NCBI GenBank assembly: GCA_937124525.1
Contig: CAKZLA010000516.1
Span: 1-11,932, forward strand
Length of the DNA: 11,932 nt
DNA from: an uncultured Desulfobacterium sp.
GTDB lineage: Bacteria > Desulfobacterota > Desulfobacteria > Desulfobacterales > Desulfobacteraceae
Direction of reading: 5' to 3'
The notes under the pieces are model-generated. The model did not search any database. It was given only the letters and a program-made list of their open reading frames with translations, and was not told the origin of the DNA. Every line of letters starts with the position of its first letter. Position 1 is the first letter of the stretch. The position numbers and the translations under genes were made by a program. Below, piece by piece: positions 1,542-11,462 of the stretch.

Positions 1542-4500
1542 CTACACCATAAGGGATATTGCCCGACACCGTTCATCCAGCCGTTTGGGGGATATTTTCA
1601 CCGGGGTTTTCAGCTCCTGGGCAAATTGGGAGACCTTGTATTCCTCAATCATCCAAAAAAACTCTTCAATGGCATCTGCCTTTTCCCGGGAGGAGTCCAC
1701 GGAAAGTGTGTTGAGCATCTCATTTAACCGGGTGATATATTTTTCCACGGCTGCTGCCTTTTGCTGATCCCTGTTAAAATCCACCATACCCCGCTGGGCC
1801 CGAATGCCAATGGCCATGACATAGCGTCTGAGATGGGGTATTTTCTCCAAAGCGTACATTTCCAGAAATCCATTGGGAATAAGGGCTGTTACAGCGACCT
1901 TAAGGCCCTCCACCCATTTTATTACCTGGGGCCGATTCATGTTTTTCAGCTGAATTTGTTTTAGAATATCCTGTGTTTTGTCATGGGCCTCACACAATTG
2001 CCCCACTCCTGAGACCAAAGCTTGGCCGATGCCGTACAATTGGGGAATTGTACGGCTGGCATGCTCTTCAAACTCATGCTGGGTACGAATTTCTTTTAAA
2101 AAAAGATGCCGCATCACGCAATTAAATAACGCCCTGTCAAAGGAAAGTTCCCCACCCACCAGAGCAGCGTGGCCTTTAAGATTCCGGGCCCGCTTCAGAT
2201 CTTTTTTCAGGGCATTGATATCTGTTTCATAAATGATTTCATAAAGAGCCATTACTCCCTCCCGGTGGGAGGCCCGGGCGGCACTCTGCTTTTTAAAAAG
2301 GCGAAGGTGCACCGCACCACCCTCCCGGGTCAGGGCAGGGTAAACACCATAAGTATATCCTTCTGCCGCATCAACAGGTATGGACTCAGGCATATCCCCC
2401 AAAATCCAGGAGACAATATTTTCCCTTTCATGTTCTGCGCACACCTTTTCAAAGGCATCTTCCCTGGGGCGCATGGTGTCTGAAAAAGTTTTTAAAACCG
2501 TTCGATCCCGGGATGCCGCAATCTCCCGGTCCTTTTCATCCCGGATGGAGATCCGCATTTTCAAATGTTCTTCAAGCCCTTTATCAGACCAGGCAGATGC
2601 GGGCACATTGACACCAAACCGCCGGTTGACAAACTGACTAAGCTCGGAAAACAGTGGCCTGTCCCGGTGGGGCATCTCCTTTACAATGATCTGGGCCTTG
2701 GTGGATATCGGCATGAGCATCACCCGGTATTTTTTGGGGAGATTTTTGATCAATGCCGTTACCTTTTCCTTAAAAAGGCCTGGTACTAAGTACTCAAGGG
2801 ACTCATTTTTCACCGATGCCGCAGACATCGCCGGCACCTTTAAGGTGACCCCATCGTGTTCGGCACCGGGATCAAACCCATACTCCAACTCAAAGTTACT
2901 CATCCCCATCTGAAGGCTGTCAGGCAAAGAGGCAAGATGTGCCTCATCAGGCTGACTTTTTTGCAAGTCAGTAAGGCTCATGCGCAAAAATGCATCTTCA
3001 CCCCGTTCTTTAAGATATCTGGCAAAGGTTTTCAGATTAAAAAAGGGCTGTTCCAGCCGTTCTTTATAAAAGAAGAATATTTCATCCTCCGAGGCCAGAA
3101 TATCCCGTTTCCGGGTTTTTTCCTCCAGTTTGCTCAATCCATCCATCAGTTCTTGATTGTGATCCATAAATGGCAACCGCCGGGGGACTTCCCCCTCCAC
3201 CAAGGCGCTTCTGATAAAAATTTCACCGGCCTCATCGGGATTTATGGGGCCATAGGAGACCCTCCTTTCCGGGATAATTATCAGTCCAAAAAGGGAAACC
3301 TGCTCTGTTGCCACCACTTCCCCTCTCTTTTTTTCCCAGTGGGGGGATGAATGGGTGCGGGTACAAAGGGTCCCTGCCAGCTCCTCCAGCCAATCAGGAT
3401 CAATGGTGGCGGCAGTTCTTGCAAAAAGCTGGCTGGTCTCCACAAACTCAGCGGCAACGATCCAGTTCCCGGCCTTGTTAAAAATCCCGGACCCCGGGAA
3501 AATCATGGCTGTCTGTCCCTTGGCAGCTTGGAAAAGATGTTTTTCTTTTTTATGGGCAATGTTGGCAAGGTATCCGCACAGCAGAGATTTGTGGAGTTCA
3601 ATGTACAAGGGACCCCCAATATCAAAGGCCTTTGACTTGAGCCCCTTGGTGCCAGATGACAGAGCTATCCTGTTTTTTCCTGTGATGCCATGCTCCCGGA
3701 GCACAGACATGATCTGACCATGGATATCCTTCCACTCCCGCAAGCGTTTAAAGGAGAGATAGTGCTCCTTGCAAAATTTGCGGACACCGTTGCGGGATTT
3801 CAAGCTCTTTTCCGCCCCCTGGCAGGCCTTCCATATGTTCAGCAATGTGATAAAATCCGATGCAGGGTCTTTAAAGATGGCGTGCTTTTGATCTGCCTGT
3901 TGGGATTTATCCTGGGGACGCTGTCTTAAATCAGCAATGGAAAGGGCAGAGGCAATGATGACAGCCTCTTCAAGGCACCCTCTCTCATCTGCTTCAATGA
4001 GGATTCTGGAGAGCTTGGGGTCCACGGGGATACCTGCCATTACCCGCCCTTTTCCCGTTAATGCATAGGCCTTTTTCCCTGTCTTTTTTTTCAGGCATAT
4101 GGCCCCCAGCTCCAGCAGGGTATCAAAGCCATCCTTGATGGATTTACCTGCGGGGGCATCAATAAAAGGGAACGAGGAGACATCCCCCAGTCCCAGGGAG
4201 ATCATCCGGAGAATAACTTCGGCAAGATTACTCCGGAGAATTTCAGGTGAGGTAAACAATGCCCTTGATCCATAGTCCGCCTCATCATAGAGCCGGATAC
4301 AGATACCATTTGAAACTCGTCCACAGCGGCCCTTTCTCTGGTCTGCGCTGCTGCGTGAAATGGGGGACACCGGCAGGGCCGTTGTCCGGGTTCTGGGGGA
4401 GTAATGGGGAATTCTTGCAAGGCCTGAGTCCACCACATATTTAATACCGGGAATGGTCAGGGAGGTTTCCGCCACATTGGTGGACACAATGATCTTACGT

Positions 4501-5528
4501 CCCGGTCCCCGGGAAAACACCTTGGCCTGCTCATGGGCCGACAGCCTGGCATAAAGAGGTAACACAGTTACCCCGGGGTATTGCCGCCCCCGCAGTAACT
4601 CAATGGCCTCGGTGATGTCCTGCTCTGTGGGCATGAACATCAAAATATCCCCTTGGCGGGACTCCCGGAGGATCATATCCACGGCATCCACGCCTGCCTC
4701 CACATACCCTTGATCATCCTGGTCTGGATCATCATGGTTTTGCACCGGCAAATAGCGCAACTCCACCGGATACATTCTGCCGGACACCTCTATCACCGGC
4801 GCATCATCAAAGGCTTTGGAAAATTTTTCCGTATCAATGGTGGCAGAGGTGATAACAAGCTTTAAATCCCGGCGCTTTCGCACCAGATCCCGGAGAATGC
4901 CCAAGGTAAAATCAATGTTAAGGCTCCGCTCGTGGGCCTCGTCCACAATGAGGGTATCATATTCGTTTAAAAAGGGATCTTTCTGGGTTTCCGCAAGCAG
5001 GATGCCATCGGTCATCACCTTGACAATGGCGTTCTGGCTGGATCGGTCATCAAAGCGGATTTTATACCCCACGGACCGTCCCAACTCCTCACCCAATTCT
5101 TCTGCCAGGCGTTTGGCCACTGTGATGGCTGCAATGCGCCGGGGCTGGGTGCATCCGATCCTGCCAGCCGCTCCCCTACCCGCTTCCATGCAGAACTTAG
5201 GAATCTGGGTAGTTTTACCCGAACCGGTCTCTCCGGCAATGATCACCACCCGGTGATGTTTCAGGGCATGGACGATTTCATCTTTTTTATGGGTGATGGG
5301 CAGATCTGGGAAATCCACTATTTTGGGCATGGCCCTGACACGGGCAGCCCGCTGATCTGATGAACGTTTGGCCCTTTTCAGAAGCAGGGCCGCCTGTTTT
5401 TCCTTTTTCCCAGAATCCCGGTGACCCACCCCCCTTTTTTTCAAACCGCGAATGCCCCGGATTAAATGGGGCCGGTCCACACACATCACCCGGTTCAGCA
5501 ATTTTTCTATTTTTTTTATCTCTTTCAT
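1542..5528 (-). CDS. hrpA: ATP-dependent RNA helicase HrpA (DEAH box)
   Basis: The 1328-residue protein is a cytoplasmic DEAH/RHA helicase that uses ATP to remodel RNA. Visible motifs: Walker A GETGSGKT (99-106), TQPRR (127-131), DEAH (196-199), SAT (228-230), NVAETSLTIPG (351-361), and motif VI QRKGRCGR (397-404). The helicase-associated and OB-like regions follow, then a long C-terminal part typical of HrpA. Length and the roughly 98 residues before Walker A match E. coli HrpA (about 1300 residues), which supports the ATG at 5526-5528. No Shine-Dalgarno sequence precedes that ATG, and a near-consensus promoter ends ten bases from it, so translation may be leaderless. The in-frame GTG/ATG at codons 14-15 is a weaker alternative. 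E. coli HrpA is known to act on stalled or collided ribosomes; the same role here is inference. Confidence 0.95.
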   Translation of the reverse strand: MKEIKKIEKLLNRVMCVDRPHLIRGIRGLKKRGVGHRDSGKKEKQAALLLKRAKRSSDQRAARVRAMPKIVDFPDLPITHKKDEIVHALKHHRVVIIAGETGSGKTTQIPKFCMEAGRGAAGRIGCTQPRRIAAITVAKRLAEELGEELGRSVGYKIRFDDRSSQNAIVKVMTDGILLAETQKDPFLNEYDTLIVDEAHERSLNIDFTLGILRDLVRKRRDLKLVITSATIDTEKFSKAFDDAPVIEVSGRMYPVELRYLPVQNHDDPDQDDQGYVEAGVDAVDMILRESRQGDILMFMPTEQDITEAIELLRGRQYPGVTVLPLYARLSAHEQAKVFSRGPGRKIIVSTNVAETSLTIPGIKYVVDSGLARIPHYSPRTRTTALPVSPISRSSADQRKGRCGRVSNGICIRLYDEADYGSRALFTSPEILRSNLAEVILRMISLGLGDVSSFPFIDAPAGKSIKDGFDTLLELGAICLKKKTGKKAYALTGKGRVMAGIPVDPKLSRILIEADERGCLEEAVIIASALSIADLRQRPQDKSQQADQKHAIFKDPASDFITLLNIWKACQGAEKSLKSRNGVRKFCKEHYLSFKRLREWKDIHGQIMSVLREHGITGKNRIALSSGTKGLKSKAFDIGGPLYIELHKSLLCGYLANIAHKKEKHLFQAAKGQTAMIFPGSGIFNKAGNWIVAAEFVETSQLFARTAATIDPDWLEELAGTLCTRTHSSPHWEKKRGEVVATEQVSLFGLIIIPERRVSYGPINPDEAGEIFIRSALVEGEVPRRLPFMDHNQELMDGLSKLEEKTRKRDILASEDEIFFFYKERLEQPFFNLKTFARYLKERGEDAFLRMSLTDLQKSQPDEAHLASLPDSLQMGMSNFELEYGFDPGAEHDGVTLKVPAMSAASVKNESLEYLVPGLFKEKVTALIKNLPKKYRVMLMPISTKAQIIVKEMPHRDRPLFSELSQFVNRRFGVNVPASAWSDKGLEEHLKMRISIRDEKDREIAASRDRTVLKTFSDTMRPREDAFEKVCAEHERENIVSWILGDMPESIPVDAAEGYTYGVYPALTREGGAVHLRLFKKQSAARASHREGVMALYEIIYETDINALKKDLKRARNLKGHAALVGGELSFDRALFNCVMRHLFLKEIRTQHEFEEHASRTIPQLYGIGQALVSGVGQLCEAHDKTQDILKQIQLKNMNRPQVIKWVEGLKVAVTALIPNGFLEMYALEKIPHLRRYVMAIGIRAQRGMVDFNRDQQKAAAVEKYITRLNEMLNTLSVDSSREKADAIEEFFWMIEEYKVSQFAQELKTPVKISPKRLDERCRAISLMV

Positions 5529-5874: not shown

Positions 5875-5996
5875 AAAACCCCAAACCATGAATACACCTT
5901 TCAAAAAGCATAAAAATGCCCAAGGAAAAAGTGTCGTCAAACGCCCAAACTTTTGACCCACTTGAATGACAAATAGTATACGGAGGAACGTAAAGC

Positions 5997-7316
5997 ATGG
6001 GTGAAGCAGCGGTTAAAATTGGAAGAAAACACCAAAGTGTTTTCAAAAATAAGGTAATGGAGATTCTGCCCGATGGGGGAAATCTCAATGCCTGTCTCAC
6101 ATGCGGTGCATGTGCTTCGGGGTGCCCGGCCACGGGCCTTGAAGGAATGGACCCCAGAAAATTTCTGAGAATGGCGGCCCTGGGAATGGATCAAGAAATC
6201 CTGACCTCCAATTGGGTCTGGATGTGCTCCATGTGTCAAAGATGTGTGTATGTCTGCCCCATGGAAATCAACATCCCCCAGCTGGTTTTTCATGCCAGAA
6301 AGTCCTGGGCCAGGGAAGATAAACCCAAGGGTATTCTGGGTTCCTGCGACATGGCCCTTCGGAACGACACCTGTAGCGCCATGGGTGCCACGGAAGAAGA
6401 CTTTGAATTTGTGGTGGAGGATGTACTGGAAGAGTACCAGGAGGCCCAGCCCGAATTTGCTGAAATGACAGCAGATGTCAACCGTGAAGGGGCCATGTAT
6501 GTATTAAACCAGAACTCCCGGGAACCAGTAACCGAACCCGATGAGATGGTGCCCCTATGGAAGATTCTCCACCTTGCCGGTGCCGATTGGACCTATAGTT
6601 CCAAGGGGTTTGCTGCGGAAAACTACTGCATGTTCATGGCCGAGGATGAAACCTGGGAAAAGATTGTCAGGACAAAAGCCAAGGCGGTGGATGATCTGGG
6701 GGCCAAGTACTGGCTCAACACCGAGTGAGGGCACGAACTATTCGCAGTCCTGGCAGGACTGAAAAAATTCAACATCGAGCACAAATTTGAAATTCTGAGC
6801 ATCATCCAGCTCTACGCAAAGTGGATCAGGGAAGGAAAGCTCAAACCCAGCAGTGATTGGAACAAGGAAAGACAGATCAAATTCACCGTCCAGGATCCAT
6901 GTCAACTGGTGAGAAAAACACTGGGAGATCCCGTTGCAGATGATCTGAGGTACATTGTTAAGGCCGTGGTGGGTGAAGAGAACTTCATCGACATGACCCC
7001 CAATAAGTCTAACAACTTTTGCTGCGGCGGCGGCGGGGGTTTTCTCCAGTCAGGTTTCACCGAGGCACGACGGGCCTATGGTCAGACCAAGACCAACCAG
7101 ATCCTGGCCACCAAGGCAGACTATTGCATCACCCCATGTCATAATTGCCATGCCCAGGTCCATGACCTGAGTGATGTTAATGACCATGCATGGCAGACCG
7201 TTCATCTGTGGACGCTTTTGTGTCTCTCCCTTGGCATTCTGGGTCCCAATGAACGGGAATACCTGGGTGACGATCTTAAAGAAGTGGATGTGTTCCATCC
7301 GGAATCAGCCATGTAA
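5997..7316 (+). CDS. Selenocysteine-containing Fe-S oxidoreductase (DsrK/HdrD/GlpC-like)
   Basis: One 440-codon frame encodes 439 residues if TGA at 6726-6728 is read as selenocysteine (Sec244). The N-terminus carries two [4Fe-4S] motifs: Cys33-x2-Cys36-x2-Cys39-x3-Cys43-Pro and Cys77-x2-Cys80-x2-Cys83-x3-Cys87-Pro. The C-terminus has a CCG-type cluster motif: DPC with Cys302, CCGGGGG with Cys342-Cys343, and Cys381-x2-Cys384. This layout matches the catalytic subunits of heterodisulfide reductase-like and DsrK/GlpC-like proteins, which pass electrons between Fe-S clusters and thiol/disulfide or quinone partners. Sec244 falls in TE-U-GHE, where Cys is expected (ECGH). No membrane segment or signal peptide is seen, so it is probably cytoplasmic. 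GGAGG at 5982-5986 lies ten bases before the ATG. It is monocistronic, ending before a strong terminator. The partner and substrate are unknown. Alternatives are a sequencing error or a nonsense mutation. Confidence 0.85.
6726..6728 (+). other. In-frame TGA read as selenocysteine (codon 244)
   Basis: The frame is open on both sides: 243 codons before and 195 after, with no other stop until TAA at 7314-7316. The two halves are parts of one protein family (ferredoxin domain, then CCG domain). The surrounding peptide TE-x-GHE predicts a Cys at x, and TGA differs from both Cys codons by one base. A SECIS-like hairpin begins 16 bases downstream. Confidence 0.82.
6745..6761 (+). promoter_or_regulatory. 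Candidate bacterial SECIS element
   Basis: CAGTCCT (6745-6751) pairs perfectly with AGGACTG (6755-6761) around the loop GGC, and some outer A/T pairs are possible. The loop begins 23 bases after the TGA. Known bacterial SECIS elements lie directly downstream of UGA, with a small apical loop about 16-37 bases away and a G among the first loop bases; this hairpin fits all of these. It is within the coding frame and encodes AVLAGL. Confidence 0.75.
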
Positions 7317-7365: not shown

Positions 7366-7403
7366 AAAAAGCCCGCTGTGCAATAATTGTGCAGCGGGTT
7401 TTT
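7366..7403 (+). terminator. Strong intrinsic terminator after the selenoprotein gene
   Basis: CCCGCTG (7372-7378) pairs with CAGCGGG (7392-7398), and the inner CAA/TTG and G-T pairs extend the stem. It is followed by TTTTT (7399-7403) and preceded by AAAAA (7366-7370). It lies 50 bases after the stop at 7316. The A-run on the left means it could also stop minus-strand transcripts that pass the terminator at 7599-7630. Confidence 0.85.
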
Positions 7404-7747: not shown

Positions 7748-8926
7748 TTACAATCTTTCAAAAACGGCCGCAGAGCCCATACCACCGCCAATGCACATGG
7801 AGACAACGCCATATCTTCCGTTGACTTCCTTCAGGTTGGCAAGACAGGTGGCTGTGAGCTTGGCACCGGTGCATCCCAGGGGATGCCCCAGGGCAATGGC
7901 ACCGCCATGGATGTTGATCTTATCCATGTACTGCTCAAGGTTGAGTTCTTTTATGCAGTAAAGGGCCTGGGAGGCAAAGGCTTCGTTGATCTCATAGATA
8001 TCAATGTCATCAATGGTTAGACTGGCAAGTTCCAGAACCTTGGGGATGGCGTACCGAGGGCCCACACCCATCTCATCGGATTTACATCCCACGCTGGTGT
8101 AGGCCACCAAGCGGGCAATGGGTTTCAATCCCAGTTCATCGCATTTTTCCTTGGAGGCAATGATGGTGGCGGCAGCCCCATCCGTGGTCTGGGAAGAGTT
8201 ACCTGCCGTCACAGATCCGTTCGCGGCAAACACGGTTCTGAGTTTTCCAAGGCCCTCGGGAGTTGATTCACGAATGCCGTCATCGTGCTCAACAATAAAG
8301 GTCTCTTTTTTCATGATACCATCGGCCTGGGCCACATATTTATAGGCCGGGGTAGGTATAATTTCCGTGAACAGGCCGTTGTCCCGGGCCCGGGCTGCCT
8401 TGGCCTGGGATTTTGAAGCAAACGCATCCTGCTCTTCCCGGCTGATGTTGTAACGATTGGCCACGTTTTCTGCGGTGATACCCATGGAGACGTACATCTC
8501 GGGATTGGTCTTTGAATATTCCGGATGGGGTCGGGGTACATTGCCGCCCATGGGCACAAAGCTCATGGATTCCACACCAGCCCCCATGGTGATCTCAGAC
8601 CATCCCATCTGCACCCGGGCCGATGCCAGGGCAATGGCTTCCAGGCCAGATGCACAGAACCGGTTCACCGTGGCACCGGACACATGATCGGGAAACCCGG
8701 CCATCTTGGCAGCCACCCGGCCAATGTTAAGCCCCTGCTCTGCCTCGGGAAAGGCACATCCACACATCACATCTTCAAGGTCTTCGGCCTTTAAATTTTC
8801 TGTTCTGTCCACAGCCTCTTTCATGATAAAGGAAAGGAGCTCTTCGGGTCGGGTCTCTTTAAACAGTCCCCTTTTCTGTTTGCAGCCGGGGGTTCTTACC
8901 GATTGTACTATATATGCATCTTTCAT
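7748..8926 (-). CDS. fadA: Acetyl-CoA acyltransferase (3-ketoacyl-CoA thiolase)
   Basis: The 392-residue enzyme cleaves 3-ketoacyl-CoA with CoA to acetyl-CoA and a shortened acyl-CoA, the last step of beta-oxidation; the reverse condensation is also possible. Thiolase landmarks are intact: nucleophile Cys91 in NRFCASG (88-94), NEAF (314-317), His348 in GGAIALGHPLG (341-351), and the second active-site Cys378 in CIGGGMG (378-384). Length is normal for the family (about 390). No targeting signal is seen. The ATG at 8924-8926 is preceded by GAGAGG with good spacing. It is the second gene of a likely two-gene unit, 127 bases after fadN, and a strong terminator lies 110-150 bases past its stop. 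Preferred chain length cannot be read from sequence; a biosynthetic acetoacetyl-CoA thiolase is less likely given the neighbour. Confidence 0.92.
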   Translation of the reverse strand: MKDAYIVQSVRTPGCKQKRGLFKETRPEELLSFIMKEAVDRTENLKAEDLEDVMCGCAFPEAEQGLNIGRVAAKMAGFPDHVSGATVNRFCASGLEAIALASARVQMGWSEITMGAGVESMSFVPMGGNVPRPHPEYSKTNPEMYVSMGITAENVANRYNISREEQDAFASKSQAKAARARDNGLFTEIIPTPAYKYVAQADGIMKKETFIVEHDDGIRESTPEGLGKLRTVFAANGSVTAGNSSQTTDGAAATIIASKEKCDELGLKPIARLVAYTSVGCKSDEMGVGPRYAIPKVLELASLTIDDIDIYEINEAFASQALYCIKELNLEQYMDKINIHGGAIALGHPLGCTGAKLTATCLANLKEVNGRYGVVSMCIGGGMGSAAVFERL

Positions 8927-9053: not shown

Positions 9054-11462
9054 TTAGTTTCTCAACGGTTTGCCGGTTTTGAGCATGTGGTCTATTCTGG
9101 CAAGGGTTTTCTCTTCTTTGACAAAATCGATAAAGGCTTCGCGTTCAAGCTTTAAAATGGCCTCTTCTGCCACCATGCTGTTTTTATTGGCATCTCCACC
9201 GCTCATGACATAGGCAATACGTTTGGCCAGAAAAGCGTCATACTCGCTCATGAAGTTACCATTGAGCATGTTATAAATTTCGGCATTAACCATGCCCTGA
9301 CCGGCATTCCCCATGACCCGCAGGGGCTTTTTCATGGGAGGTGCATAGGCGTCATCCACCATTTTCAGAACCTCTTTCTTGGCCTCGCCCACCAGGTTAT
9401 CCCGGTTGAACACAATTCTATCGGCAAGTCCCAGAAAACCATTGGCCCGGGCCTCAGCCCCGGACATGGAGACCTTGGCCATGGCCACGTTCATGAAGGC
9501 TGGAATAAAGAGTTTAGCAAGATCGGTATCCTTGGCAACACCTGCAGGAAGGGCATCAATGAATTTTTTCCAAATATTCATGCAACCACCACCAGCGGGC
9601 AAAAGCCCCACACCGATCTCCACAAGTCCCATGTAAAGCTCAGCATGGGCCACAATGCGATCGGCACCCAGGCAAGTTTCACAACCGCCGCCCAATGTCA
9701 TGCCATAGGGGGCTGCCACCACAGGGAAGGGGGCATATTTTGCCTTTTGGATGCCGGTCTGGGCTCTTTCAAGGAAGCCATCCAGTTCTGCATATTTTTT
9801 ATCATGGGCCATGCGGGAGACAAAAGAGAGATCTGCCCCGGCGGAAAAGGCACCGGGCATGCCGCCTGCCTGGTTGCCAATGACAAGCCCTGCACCATTG
9901 GCATCCACATAATTAAGTGCATCATCAATGGAATCAATGATCTCGGCATTCAGCGCGTTCATTTTTGTGTGGAATTCAAGGCAGAACACCCCGTCTCCAA
10001 TATCAATGAGGCTTGCGGAACTGTTCTCCTGGGCCACCTTATCGTTGCCCCGGGCCGCAGCAAGGGAAACCATGGTGTCACTCATGGGAACGACTTTGTA
10101 GGCTGCCGTTGCAAAATCATAAAAATAATTTTTACCCTGTTCCAGTTTATAGAAGCAGGTATTACCAGCAGCCAGCATGGCAGAAACGTTTTCCGGAATG
10201 TCATAGCCTTCGGCCTTCATTCTCGCAACGGCATCGGCAATCCCATAGGTGTCCCACAGCTCAAAGGGACCCATTTCAAAATTGTATCCCCATTTCATGG
10301 AATTATCAATTTCTATGATGGTGTCGGAAATCTCCGGGATTCTGTTGGCCGCATACTGAAAACTTTTTACTGCCATTTTCCAGGCAAATTTTGCGCCCTT
10401 GTCATCTCCTGTGAGAACACATTTGATTTTTTCAGGCAGGGTGGCCATTTTTTTGGCAGCATCCAGGCAGGGAAAGGTGGGACGAGCGAGGTCTTCGTAT
10501 TCCAGTGTGGCCGGATTGATCACCTTCCGGATTTTTTTCCACTCCGGTGTCAGGTCTGTTTTATAAAAACCGGCCCGGGTTTTATTGCCGAGCAGCTTTT
10601 TCTCGATCATATGTTTGATGAATTCAGGAACGATAAAGGCGTCCCGCTGTTCATCATCGGGGCAAAGGTCATAGGAATTTTGACACACATGGGCCATGGT
10701 GTCCAGCCCCACAAGGTCAGTGGTTTTAAAAATAGCGGTTTTGGGTCGACCCAGGGCCGGACCAAACAGGGCATCCACTTCGGGAATGGTCAATCCATCT
10801 TCCAGCATGGAGGACATCACGGCCCCAATGCCATGGACCCCAATGCGATTACCCACAAAGTTGGGGGTATCCTTGGCCCAGACAATGCCCTTGCCCAGAT
10901 TTTTTTCACCAAATCCAGAAATAAAGCTCAACACTTCGGGAAGGGTCTCCTCACCTGGGATGAGTTCCAGAAGATGCATGTAACGCACAGGATTAAAAAA
11001 ATGGGTTCCCAGAAAATGTTGTTTAAAATCAGAACTCAGGCCCTGGGACATATCTTTTAAAGGAATACCGGATGTGTTGGAACTGATGATGGAACCGGGT
11101 TTTCGAACACCTTCAATGCGACCGAAAAGACTTTGTTTAATTTTAAGGTTTTCAACCACCACTTCGCAGATCCAGTCACAGTCTGCCAATTTGTCAAAAT
11201 CATCATCAAGGTTACCGATTTTGATCAATGTGGCATCTTTTTTGGTCATGAACAGGGATGGAAAGGATGCAAGTGCCGCATCCATACCCGCTTTAACCAT
11301 GCGATTTCTTGCTGCGGGATCTTTTTTCTCTTCATCTGTTAAATCAAATGGAACAATGTCTAACAAAAGCACATCCACGCCAGCACCGGCAAGAAGAGCG
11401 GCAATCCCTCCACCCATTATACCGGAACCGATCACTGCTGCCTTTCTGATCTTTCTACTCAT
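9054..11462 (-). CDS. fadN: FadN-like 3-hydroxyacyl-CoA dehydrogenase / enoyl-CoA hydratase
   Basis: The 802-residue bifunctional enzyme would hydrate enoyl-CoA and oxidise the 3-hydroxyacyl-CoA with NAD+, the two middle steps of beta-oxidation. The dehydrogenase is N-terminal: Rossmann motif GSGIMGG (12-18), SSNTSG (127-132), catalytic His154 in GTHFFNP (152-158), Glu166 in LELIPG, and NFVGNRIG (201-208). The crotonase domain follows at about 485-690: oxyanion stretch FSAGADL (539-545), GGGCE with Glu595, and LVEIGVGL with Glu615. Both crotonase acidic residues that are catalytic in FadB appear to be kept. This order is that of Bacillus FadN, not of FadB, which has the hydratase first. The ATG at 11460-11462 follows a perfect AGGAGG (11468-11473) at five bases. 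It is the first gene of the fadN-fadA unit. A promoter and a palindromic operator candidate lie just upstream. Confidence 0.92.
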   Translation of the reverse strand: MSRKIRKAAVIGSGIMGGGIAALLAGAGVDVLLLDIVPFDLTDEEKKDPAARNRMVKAGMDAALASFPSLFMTKKDATLIKIGNLDDDFDKLADCDWICEVVVENLKIKQSLFGRIEGVRKPGSIISSNTSGIPLKDMSQGLSSDFKQHFLGTHFFNPVRYMHLLELIPGEETLPEVLSFISGFGEKNLGKGIVWAKDTPNFVGNRIGVHGIGAVMSSMLEDGLTIPEVDALFGPALGRPKTAIFKTTDLVGLDTMAHVCQNSYDLCPDDEQRDAFIVPEFIKHMIEKKLLGNKTRAGFYKTDLTPEWKKIRKVINPATLEYEDLARPTFPCLDAAKKMATLPEKIKCVLTGDDKGAKFAWKMAVKSFQYAANRIPEISDTIIEIDNSMKWGYNFEMGPFELWDTYGIADAVARMKAEGYDIPENVSAMLAAGNTCFYKLEQGKNYFYDFATAAYKVVPMSDTMVSLAAARGNDKVAQENSSASLIDIGDGVFCLEFHTKMNALNAEIIDSIDDALNYVDANGAGLVIGNQAGGMPGAFSAGADLSFVSRMAHDKKYAELDGFLERAQTGIQKAKYAPFPVVAAPYGMTLGGGCETCLGADRIVAHAELYMGLVEIGVGLLPAGGGCMNIWKKFIDALPAGVAKDTDLAKLFIPAFMNVAMAKVSMSGAEARANGFLGLADRIVFNRDNLVGEAKKEVLKMVDDAYAPPMKKPLRVMGNAGQGMVNAEIYNMLNGNFMSEYDAFLAKRIAYVMSGGDANKNSMVAEEAILKLEREAFIDFVKEEKTLARIDHMLKTGKPLRN

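Follow-up and report, generated by a model that had tools for sequence, protein, structure and literature searches.

The 11,932-nucleotide stretch analysed here (contig CAKZLA010000516.1 of assembly GCA_937124525.1 from an uncultured Desulfobacterium sp., hereafter the window) carries on its forward strand a gene, 5997-7316, whose product is very probably a genuine selenoprotein of HdrCB-type nature, with selenocysteine (Sec) at UGA codon 244. Four elements read from the sequence underlie this assignment: the Sec codon, a hairpin downstream of it, homologues with Cys in its place, and the sets of Fe-S ligands. The gene belongs to an already known selenoprotein family. What is added here, as judged from alignments, is that Sec takes the place of Cys in an ECGH motif, one that TmcB and HmcF also have, and that the N-terminal CCG domain around it is devoid of most of its ligands.

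Probable selenocysteine at codon 244

With TGA read through, the open reading frame (ORF) encodes 439 residues followed by a final TAA, and the TGA of codon 244 (6726-6728) is its sole in-frame stop, as the original prediction had described. Translation with Table 11 yields instead two ORFs, of 243 aa (5997-6728) and 135 aa (6909-7316, with a GTG start at 6909), which is the truncation by standard annotation that was foreseen there; because the standard code splits such genes in two, the family is easily under-counted. These two ORFs, the second with its own GTG, are also what favours a real stop at TGA, with the halves being separate proteins. However, this would be very improbable, because the 60 codons from TGA to GTG 6909 show 93% protein identity to each of three relatives, Desulfocicer vacuolatum DSM 3385 (L001) and loci L002 and L006 (codons 1-243: 88-97%), the Cys homologues are single proteins, and the hairpin described below is conserved where the gene has TGA but not where it has Cys. 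Also, base composition alone gives a probability of ~7e-5 for the 194 codons that stay open after TGA.

The TGA recurs throughout the family. Of 419 relatives from a genome scan, the 80 best yielded the 79 loci that were kept and examined; codon 244 is TGA in all 79, at 74-96% protein identity, and likewise in the second, tandem copies of L002 and L003. In a sample of 297 genomes from the phylum of D. vacuolatum, the genome of D. vacuolatum included (the Sec form as query, E <= 1e-80, at most five candidates scored per genome), 42 genomes have a match; 45 of the 61 matches contain an internal TGA and 16 have none, and in the fetched loci having TGA its position is codon 244. On the protein side, a search gave 2472 matches, 120 of them listed and 54 of those aligned with the window protein, a set biased to Cys forms since standard gene calling truncates TGA genes. 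Among these listed matches, Cys occupies column 244 in 54 of 54 aligned homologues. The alignment of Cys with codon 244 had been set beforehand as a test, and the TmcB and HmcF proteins compared agree with it too. The local context is NTE-U-GHE, and the ten Cys homologues read all have ECGH (NTECGH in nine, NIECGH in one), in line with the TE-Cys-GHE expected at this site by the original prediction.

Purifying selection is similar on both sides of the TGA. Against D. vacuolatum, the nonsynonymous and synonymous divergences (dN and dS) are 0.0149 and 0.553 for codons 1-243, and 0.0222 and 0.683 for codons 245-439; dN is far below dS before and after the TGA against L002 and L006 too. A sequencing error or a decaying gene, in favour of which there is a single stop codon and nothing more, is hardly credible for a TGA common to all 79 kept loci in a gene whose dN is ~3% of dS on both sides.

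Downstream of the TGA lies a candidate selenocysteine insertion sequence (SECIS) hairpin, whose stem, counting from the first base of TGA, spans offsets 19-25/29-35, with 16 nt between TGA and the stem base. Across 82 sequences (the window and 81 others), the seven pairs persist in 78, 82, 76, 82, 82, 81 and 82. At the innermost position, 28 sequences have T-A, 51 have G-C and 3 have G-T, and since this swap turns a Leu codon into an Arg codon, the protein yields to the RNA at that site; pair 20/34 is A-T in 63, G-T in 12, G-C in 6 and T-A in one. Among 107 distinct TGA segments, 93 keep all seven pairs and 14 keep six, whereas the distinct Cys-codon segments used as control keep just 2-5 of the seven. 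The isolated hairpin folds with -9.6 kcal/mol (z -2.83). Two observations weigh against a SECIS function: the Cys-codon control is small (n = 7 segments), and a 61-nt stretch folds differently (z -1.00), the hairpin not being seen there. Short bacterial SECIS elements are highly variable.

Regarding the decoding machinery, which the original prediction had proposed to look for, selA, selB, tRNA-Sec and selD score above curated cut-offs in the three genomes of relatives L001, L002 and L006, whereas in 14 control genomes the same cut-offs are passed by selA in 1, selB in 2, tRNA-Sec in 5 and selD in 2. In all three relatives, the top-scoring selD itself contains a TGA. Decoding of the TGA as some other residue, such as Trp by a code change, can practically be set aside: besides this machinery and the Cys found at column 244 in relatives, TGA serves as a stop elsewhere in the window, because among the other four long genes one ends in TGA (the others in TAG, TAA and TAA) and none of them holds an in-frame TGA or any other in-frame stop. 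Pyrrolysine was considered for four relatives and rejected; the TAG of L086, L111 and L118, at alignment positions 432-433, is the gene end, and in L116 a TAA lies outside the alignment, its codon 244 being TGC.

Predicted iron-sulfur ligands around the selenocysteine

By fold and profile matches, a single chain unites an HdrC-type and an HdrB-type domain; its predicted fold is of the HdrCB/EtfD type, an HdrC+HdrB fusion, and it would be an electron-transfer subunit in which an HdrC-like double-cubane domain precedes an HdrB-like pair of CCG domains. Model residues 14-436 align to EtfD residues 284-751 only, the EtfD-type N-terminal membrane domain with heme being absent. The ferredoxin and CCG halves proposed from the sequence are recovered by Pfam as Fer4-type matches (best stretches within residues 29-92) and a CCG match (297-388). 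Pfam gives no match in the stretch between them that holds the degenerate N-terminal CCG domain (~166-280), and the search that gave HdrC 5odc_C returned no further chain when rerun with a looser limit. The Sec was originally placed in a CCG context, and this stands in part: it is not in the CCG domain with full ligands (302-384) but in the degenerate N-terminal one. Canonical HdrD has two complete CCG ligand sets, as also read from one aligned HdrD-like protein; here, a complete set is found in the C-terminal domain only.

Conservation was evaluated in a ligand alignment of 174 sequences (110 TGA, 62 Cys and 2 outgroups), taken from matches of >=330 residues in L001-L128, the 54 database proteins and the proteins of L129, L130 and L134, with L080-L083 and identical rows left out. 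Cys302, 342, 343, 381 and 384, Glu243, Cys or Sec at 244, and His246 are present in 174/174, followed by Cys211 (173/174), Asn173 (172/174), Gly245 (171/174) and Ser174 (166/174). The eight Cys of the HdrC-like domain (33, 36, 39, 43, 77, 80, 83, 87) are invariant in 55 sequences.

For EtfD, PMC13083937 describes a linear [3Fe-4S] cluster held by Cys503, 538, 581 and 584, and a noncubane cluster with Cys637, 672, 673, 709 and 712 plus His583 as ligands. Because the C-x-H spacing is alike, position 244 would correspond to EtfD Cys581 and 246 to EtfD His583. A comparison of the family with one HdrB by hhalign covered the C-terminal CCG domain alone, so the N-terminal mapping was drawn from the fold and from two further alignments. 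In the first, a very weak side alignment to HdrB by HMMER, position 244 falls on an HdrB Cys; in the second, made with MAFFT, the His is retained by three EtfD-like proteins of relatives, and one HdrD-like protein has CxxC. Cys211 is a doubtful counterpart of EtfD Cys538, with a six-residue offset in the MAFFT alignment. Position 247, that of EtfD Cys584, varies (E, S, V, A and others), M or L stands at 212, and no Cys is found near the position of EtfD Cys503, where Asn173 and Ser174 stand. Because 247 varies and the Cys503 position has no Cys, the first, EtfD linear-type cluster is probably absent from the family and the noncubane cluster completed by His probably present.

Two roles for Sec244 were weighed. 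Instead of being a free redox group, the residue could bind an Fe-S cluster directly through its selenolate, either the noncubane cluster or a small second one held jointly with a partner subunit. This would be consistent with the linear-cluster ligand EtfD Cys581 being equated with 244 (PMC13083937), with the HdrB Cys reached by the side alignment and with Cys or Sec at 244 in every aligned sequence. However, the other second-cluster ligands are missing, as the positions of Cys503, 212 and 247 indicate, and two protein ligands are few for one cluster; a ligand role is thus possible but rather unlikely. On the other hand, a Cys211-Sec244 redox pair beside the noncubane cluster is proposed, tentatively and with well under even confidence. 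An extended version, equally doubtful, is that the pair replaces the HdrB-type outer cluster, its selenenylsulfide being the terminal or catalytic centre, and that in TmcB and HmcF, too, the Cys of ECGH is a redox centre that has gone unnoticed.

For Sec244 as a redox group, the following sequence of events can be envisaged. Sec244 is very probably inserted at UGA with the aid of the SECIS hairpin. Electrons from a flavoprotein partner, HdrA/MvhD-type genes adjoining many relatives, would pass to the two cubanes, then to the noncubane [4Fe-4S] cluster bound by Cys302, 342, 343, 381 and 384 and completed by His246, and from there to a redox-active Sec244 beside it. Sec244, perhaps together with Cys211, would occupy the place of the second cluster of HdrB and EtfD, and may act as a fast thiol/selenol relay or as a catalytic group toward an acceptor.

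Gene surroundings in the window and among relatives

Table 1. Features of the selenoprotein gene and its flanks (window positions)
Feature	Positions	Strand	Basis
GGAGGA, putative ribosome-binding site before ATG 5997	5982..5987	+	inferred from position
Selenoprotein gene, HdrC+HdrB-like (GlpC/HdrD-type) Fe-S oxidoreductase, 439 residues	5997..7316	+	translation, Pfam, recurrence in relatives, selection
HdrC-like double [4Fe-4S] domain, residues 29-103, Cys 33, 36, 39, 43, 77, 80, 83, 87	6081..6305	+	Pfam Fer4_8/Fer4_17; HdrC 5odc_C match
Degenerate N-terminal CCG domain, ~residues 166-280 (approximate limits), with Cys211 and Sec244	6492..6836	+	HdrB fold matches from residue 166; column conservation
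Cys211 codon	6627..6629	+	Cys in 173/174 aligned sequences; exception an HmcF outgroup
Sec codon 244, TGA	6726..6728	+	translation, relatives, hairpin control
His246 codon, putative counterpart of EtfD His583 (noncubane-cluster ligand)	6732..6734	+	His in 174/174
Candidate SECIS hairpin, stem 6745-6751/6755-6761, loop GGC 6752-6754	6745..6761	+	pair conservation, fold
C-terminal CCG domain, residues 297-388, Cys 302, 342, 343, 381, 384, predicted noncubane [4Fe-4S] site	6885..7160	+	Pfam CCG; HdrB profile match
Terminator-like hairpin, 17 pairs, T run at end of 3' arm	7367..7403	+	fold -24.8 kcal/mol, z -6.53

The Sec gene looks monocistronic (Table 1). Its neighbour on the opposite strand is an HrpA-type helicase gene (1542-5528), and on the minus strand follow a thiolase (7748-8926) and an 802-aa protein with HCDH and enoyl-CoA hydratase parts (9054-11462), for which the nearest NCBIfam model is Staph_FadB (537 bits, cut-off 999). 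The terminator-like hairpin was not among the output of a simple terminator scan, a Pfam scan of the five long window ORFs found no GlpA and no GlpB, and Rfam gave nothing on the window at gathering scores. Four blocks of the window are collinear with D. vacuolatum DSM 3385, with 83-89% DNA identity, which points to a probable host among its relatives in the Desulfobacterota. In the window's own clade (L001-L022), the Sec gene stands alone, with hrpA upstream in the opposite direction in 18 of 22 loci and ParA downstream in 15 of 22.

Across the family, HdrA, FlpD(MvhD), MetV or MetF genes lie on the same strand within 2.5 kb in 32 of the 79 loci, a lower bound because flank lengths differ, and the order MetV-MetF-HdrA-FlpD-Sec gene is found in several. 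Close hdrA and mvhD ORFs were considered as one gene split by a Sec codon and rejected; the frames differ in five of seven cases and a TAA intervenes in the other two. Also, in L074 and L076 (~3350-3370), a FlpD/MvhD frame has an in-frame TGA in CCK(Y/F)*GYTAAD, resembling known Sec-containing MvhD.

Five family members with >=51% identity occur in D. vacuolatum, three with TGA and two without; one TGA copy sits between MetF and an HdrA/GltD fusion. In this cluster (L133:1041-9543), MetF and the TGA family member are accompanied by the GltD/HdrA fusion, HdrL-like and of 1478 aa, and by two further ORFs, one short and one MetV-like; an HTH plus response-regulator gene lies upstream. In the same organism, a Cys-form member adjoins a 1280-aa ORF (L134:8049-11891, minus strand) in which HdrA-type flavin parts, a ferredoxin and FlpD are joined to a stretch resembling HTH_17 (25.5 bits, cut-off 27). 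Within L132:13676-17570, a Cys-form member is followed downstream by a double-cubane-cluster reductase (NF040772; 465 bits against a cut-off of 350) and by an ORF resembling the activator ATPase of that reductase.

A quick tree of 120 of the 174 rows (90% identity filter, SH-aLRT as its only branch support) was rooted with TmcB/HmcF on very long outgroup branches; at least seven Sec/Cys changes are needed, and under this root the deepest branches are Sec. L002 and L003 each have two TGA members in tandem, ~1.8 kb apart, the second L002 copy falling on another branch of the tree.

Comparison with known proteins

The original prediction had called the protein DsrK/HdrD/GlpC-like. This holds as far as the HdrC/HdrB fusion by fold is concerned, but the nearest NCBIfam models stay far below their cut-offs: HmcF (NF045711) with 152.6 bits of 750, TmcB (NF045724) with 138.2 of 735 and DsrK (NF045796) with 111.5 of 400, while the model for GlpC of anaerobic glycerol-3-phosphate dehydrogenase (TIGR03379) reaches 35.4 bits of 279.9. 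HmcF, TmcB and DsrK have the Fer4+CCG layout in common with the window protein. The HmcF and TmcB compared are 25-29% identical to it and have Cys instead of Sec; one HmcF and two TmcB carry ECGH at the Sec column, and Cys211 is missing in the HmcF and in one TmcB.

That the family might not be new was rightly suspected. According to PMC1794560 and PMC13188914, a selenoprotein named Fe-S oxidoreductase(-like) (GlpC) with the motif UGH has been published. The window protein has this motif as U244-G245-H246, and likened by description, both have in common a UGA followed by Gly-His, an Fe-S oxidoreductase nature and deltaproteobacterial hosts, and relatives in the window family adjoin hdrA and mvhD-type genes as the published genes do. 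However, the published operons are glpC-hdrA-frhD-frhG-frhA, whereas the window gene is solitary beside hrpA. Also, PMC2702500 names hdrD4 of Desulfobacterium autotrophicum HRM2 as encoding a selenocysteine protein, the products of hdrD1-4 being HdrC+HdrB homologues without membrane parts; by description only, HdrD4 resembles the window protein in its HdrC+HdrB type, its Sec and the lack of a membrane part. In the portions of the family literature available, neither the degenerate N-terminal CCG domain nor the His ligand nor a possible Cys-Sec pair was met, which is no claim that they are unpublished. Likewise, openly licensed PMC text gave no paper title dealing with the clusters or the Sec chemistry of the family, which does not mean that none is in print.

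Compared with EtfD of Mycobacterium smegmatis (9ojn; PMC13083937) and HdrB (5odc), the window protein has no membrane part, and its N-terminal CCG domain appears to lack most second-cluster ligands, with Sec at one of the remaining positions. The Sec column marks the one Cys common to TmcB, HmcF and the window family in a CCG domain from which most ligands are gone, and thus allows a concrete test of the role of this degenerate domain in the electron-transfer complexes of sulfate reducers.
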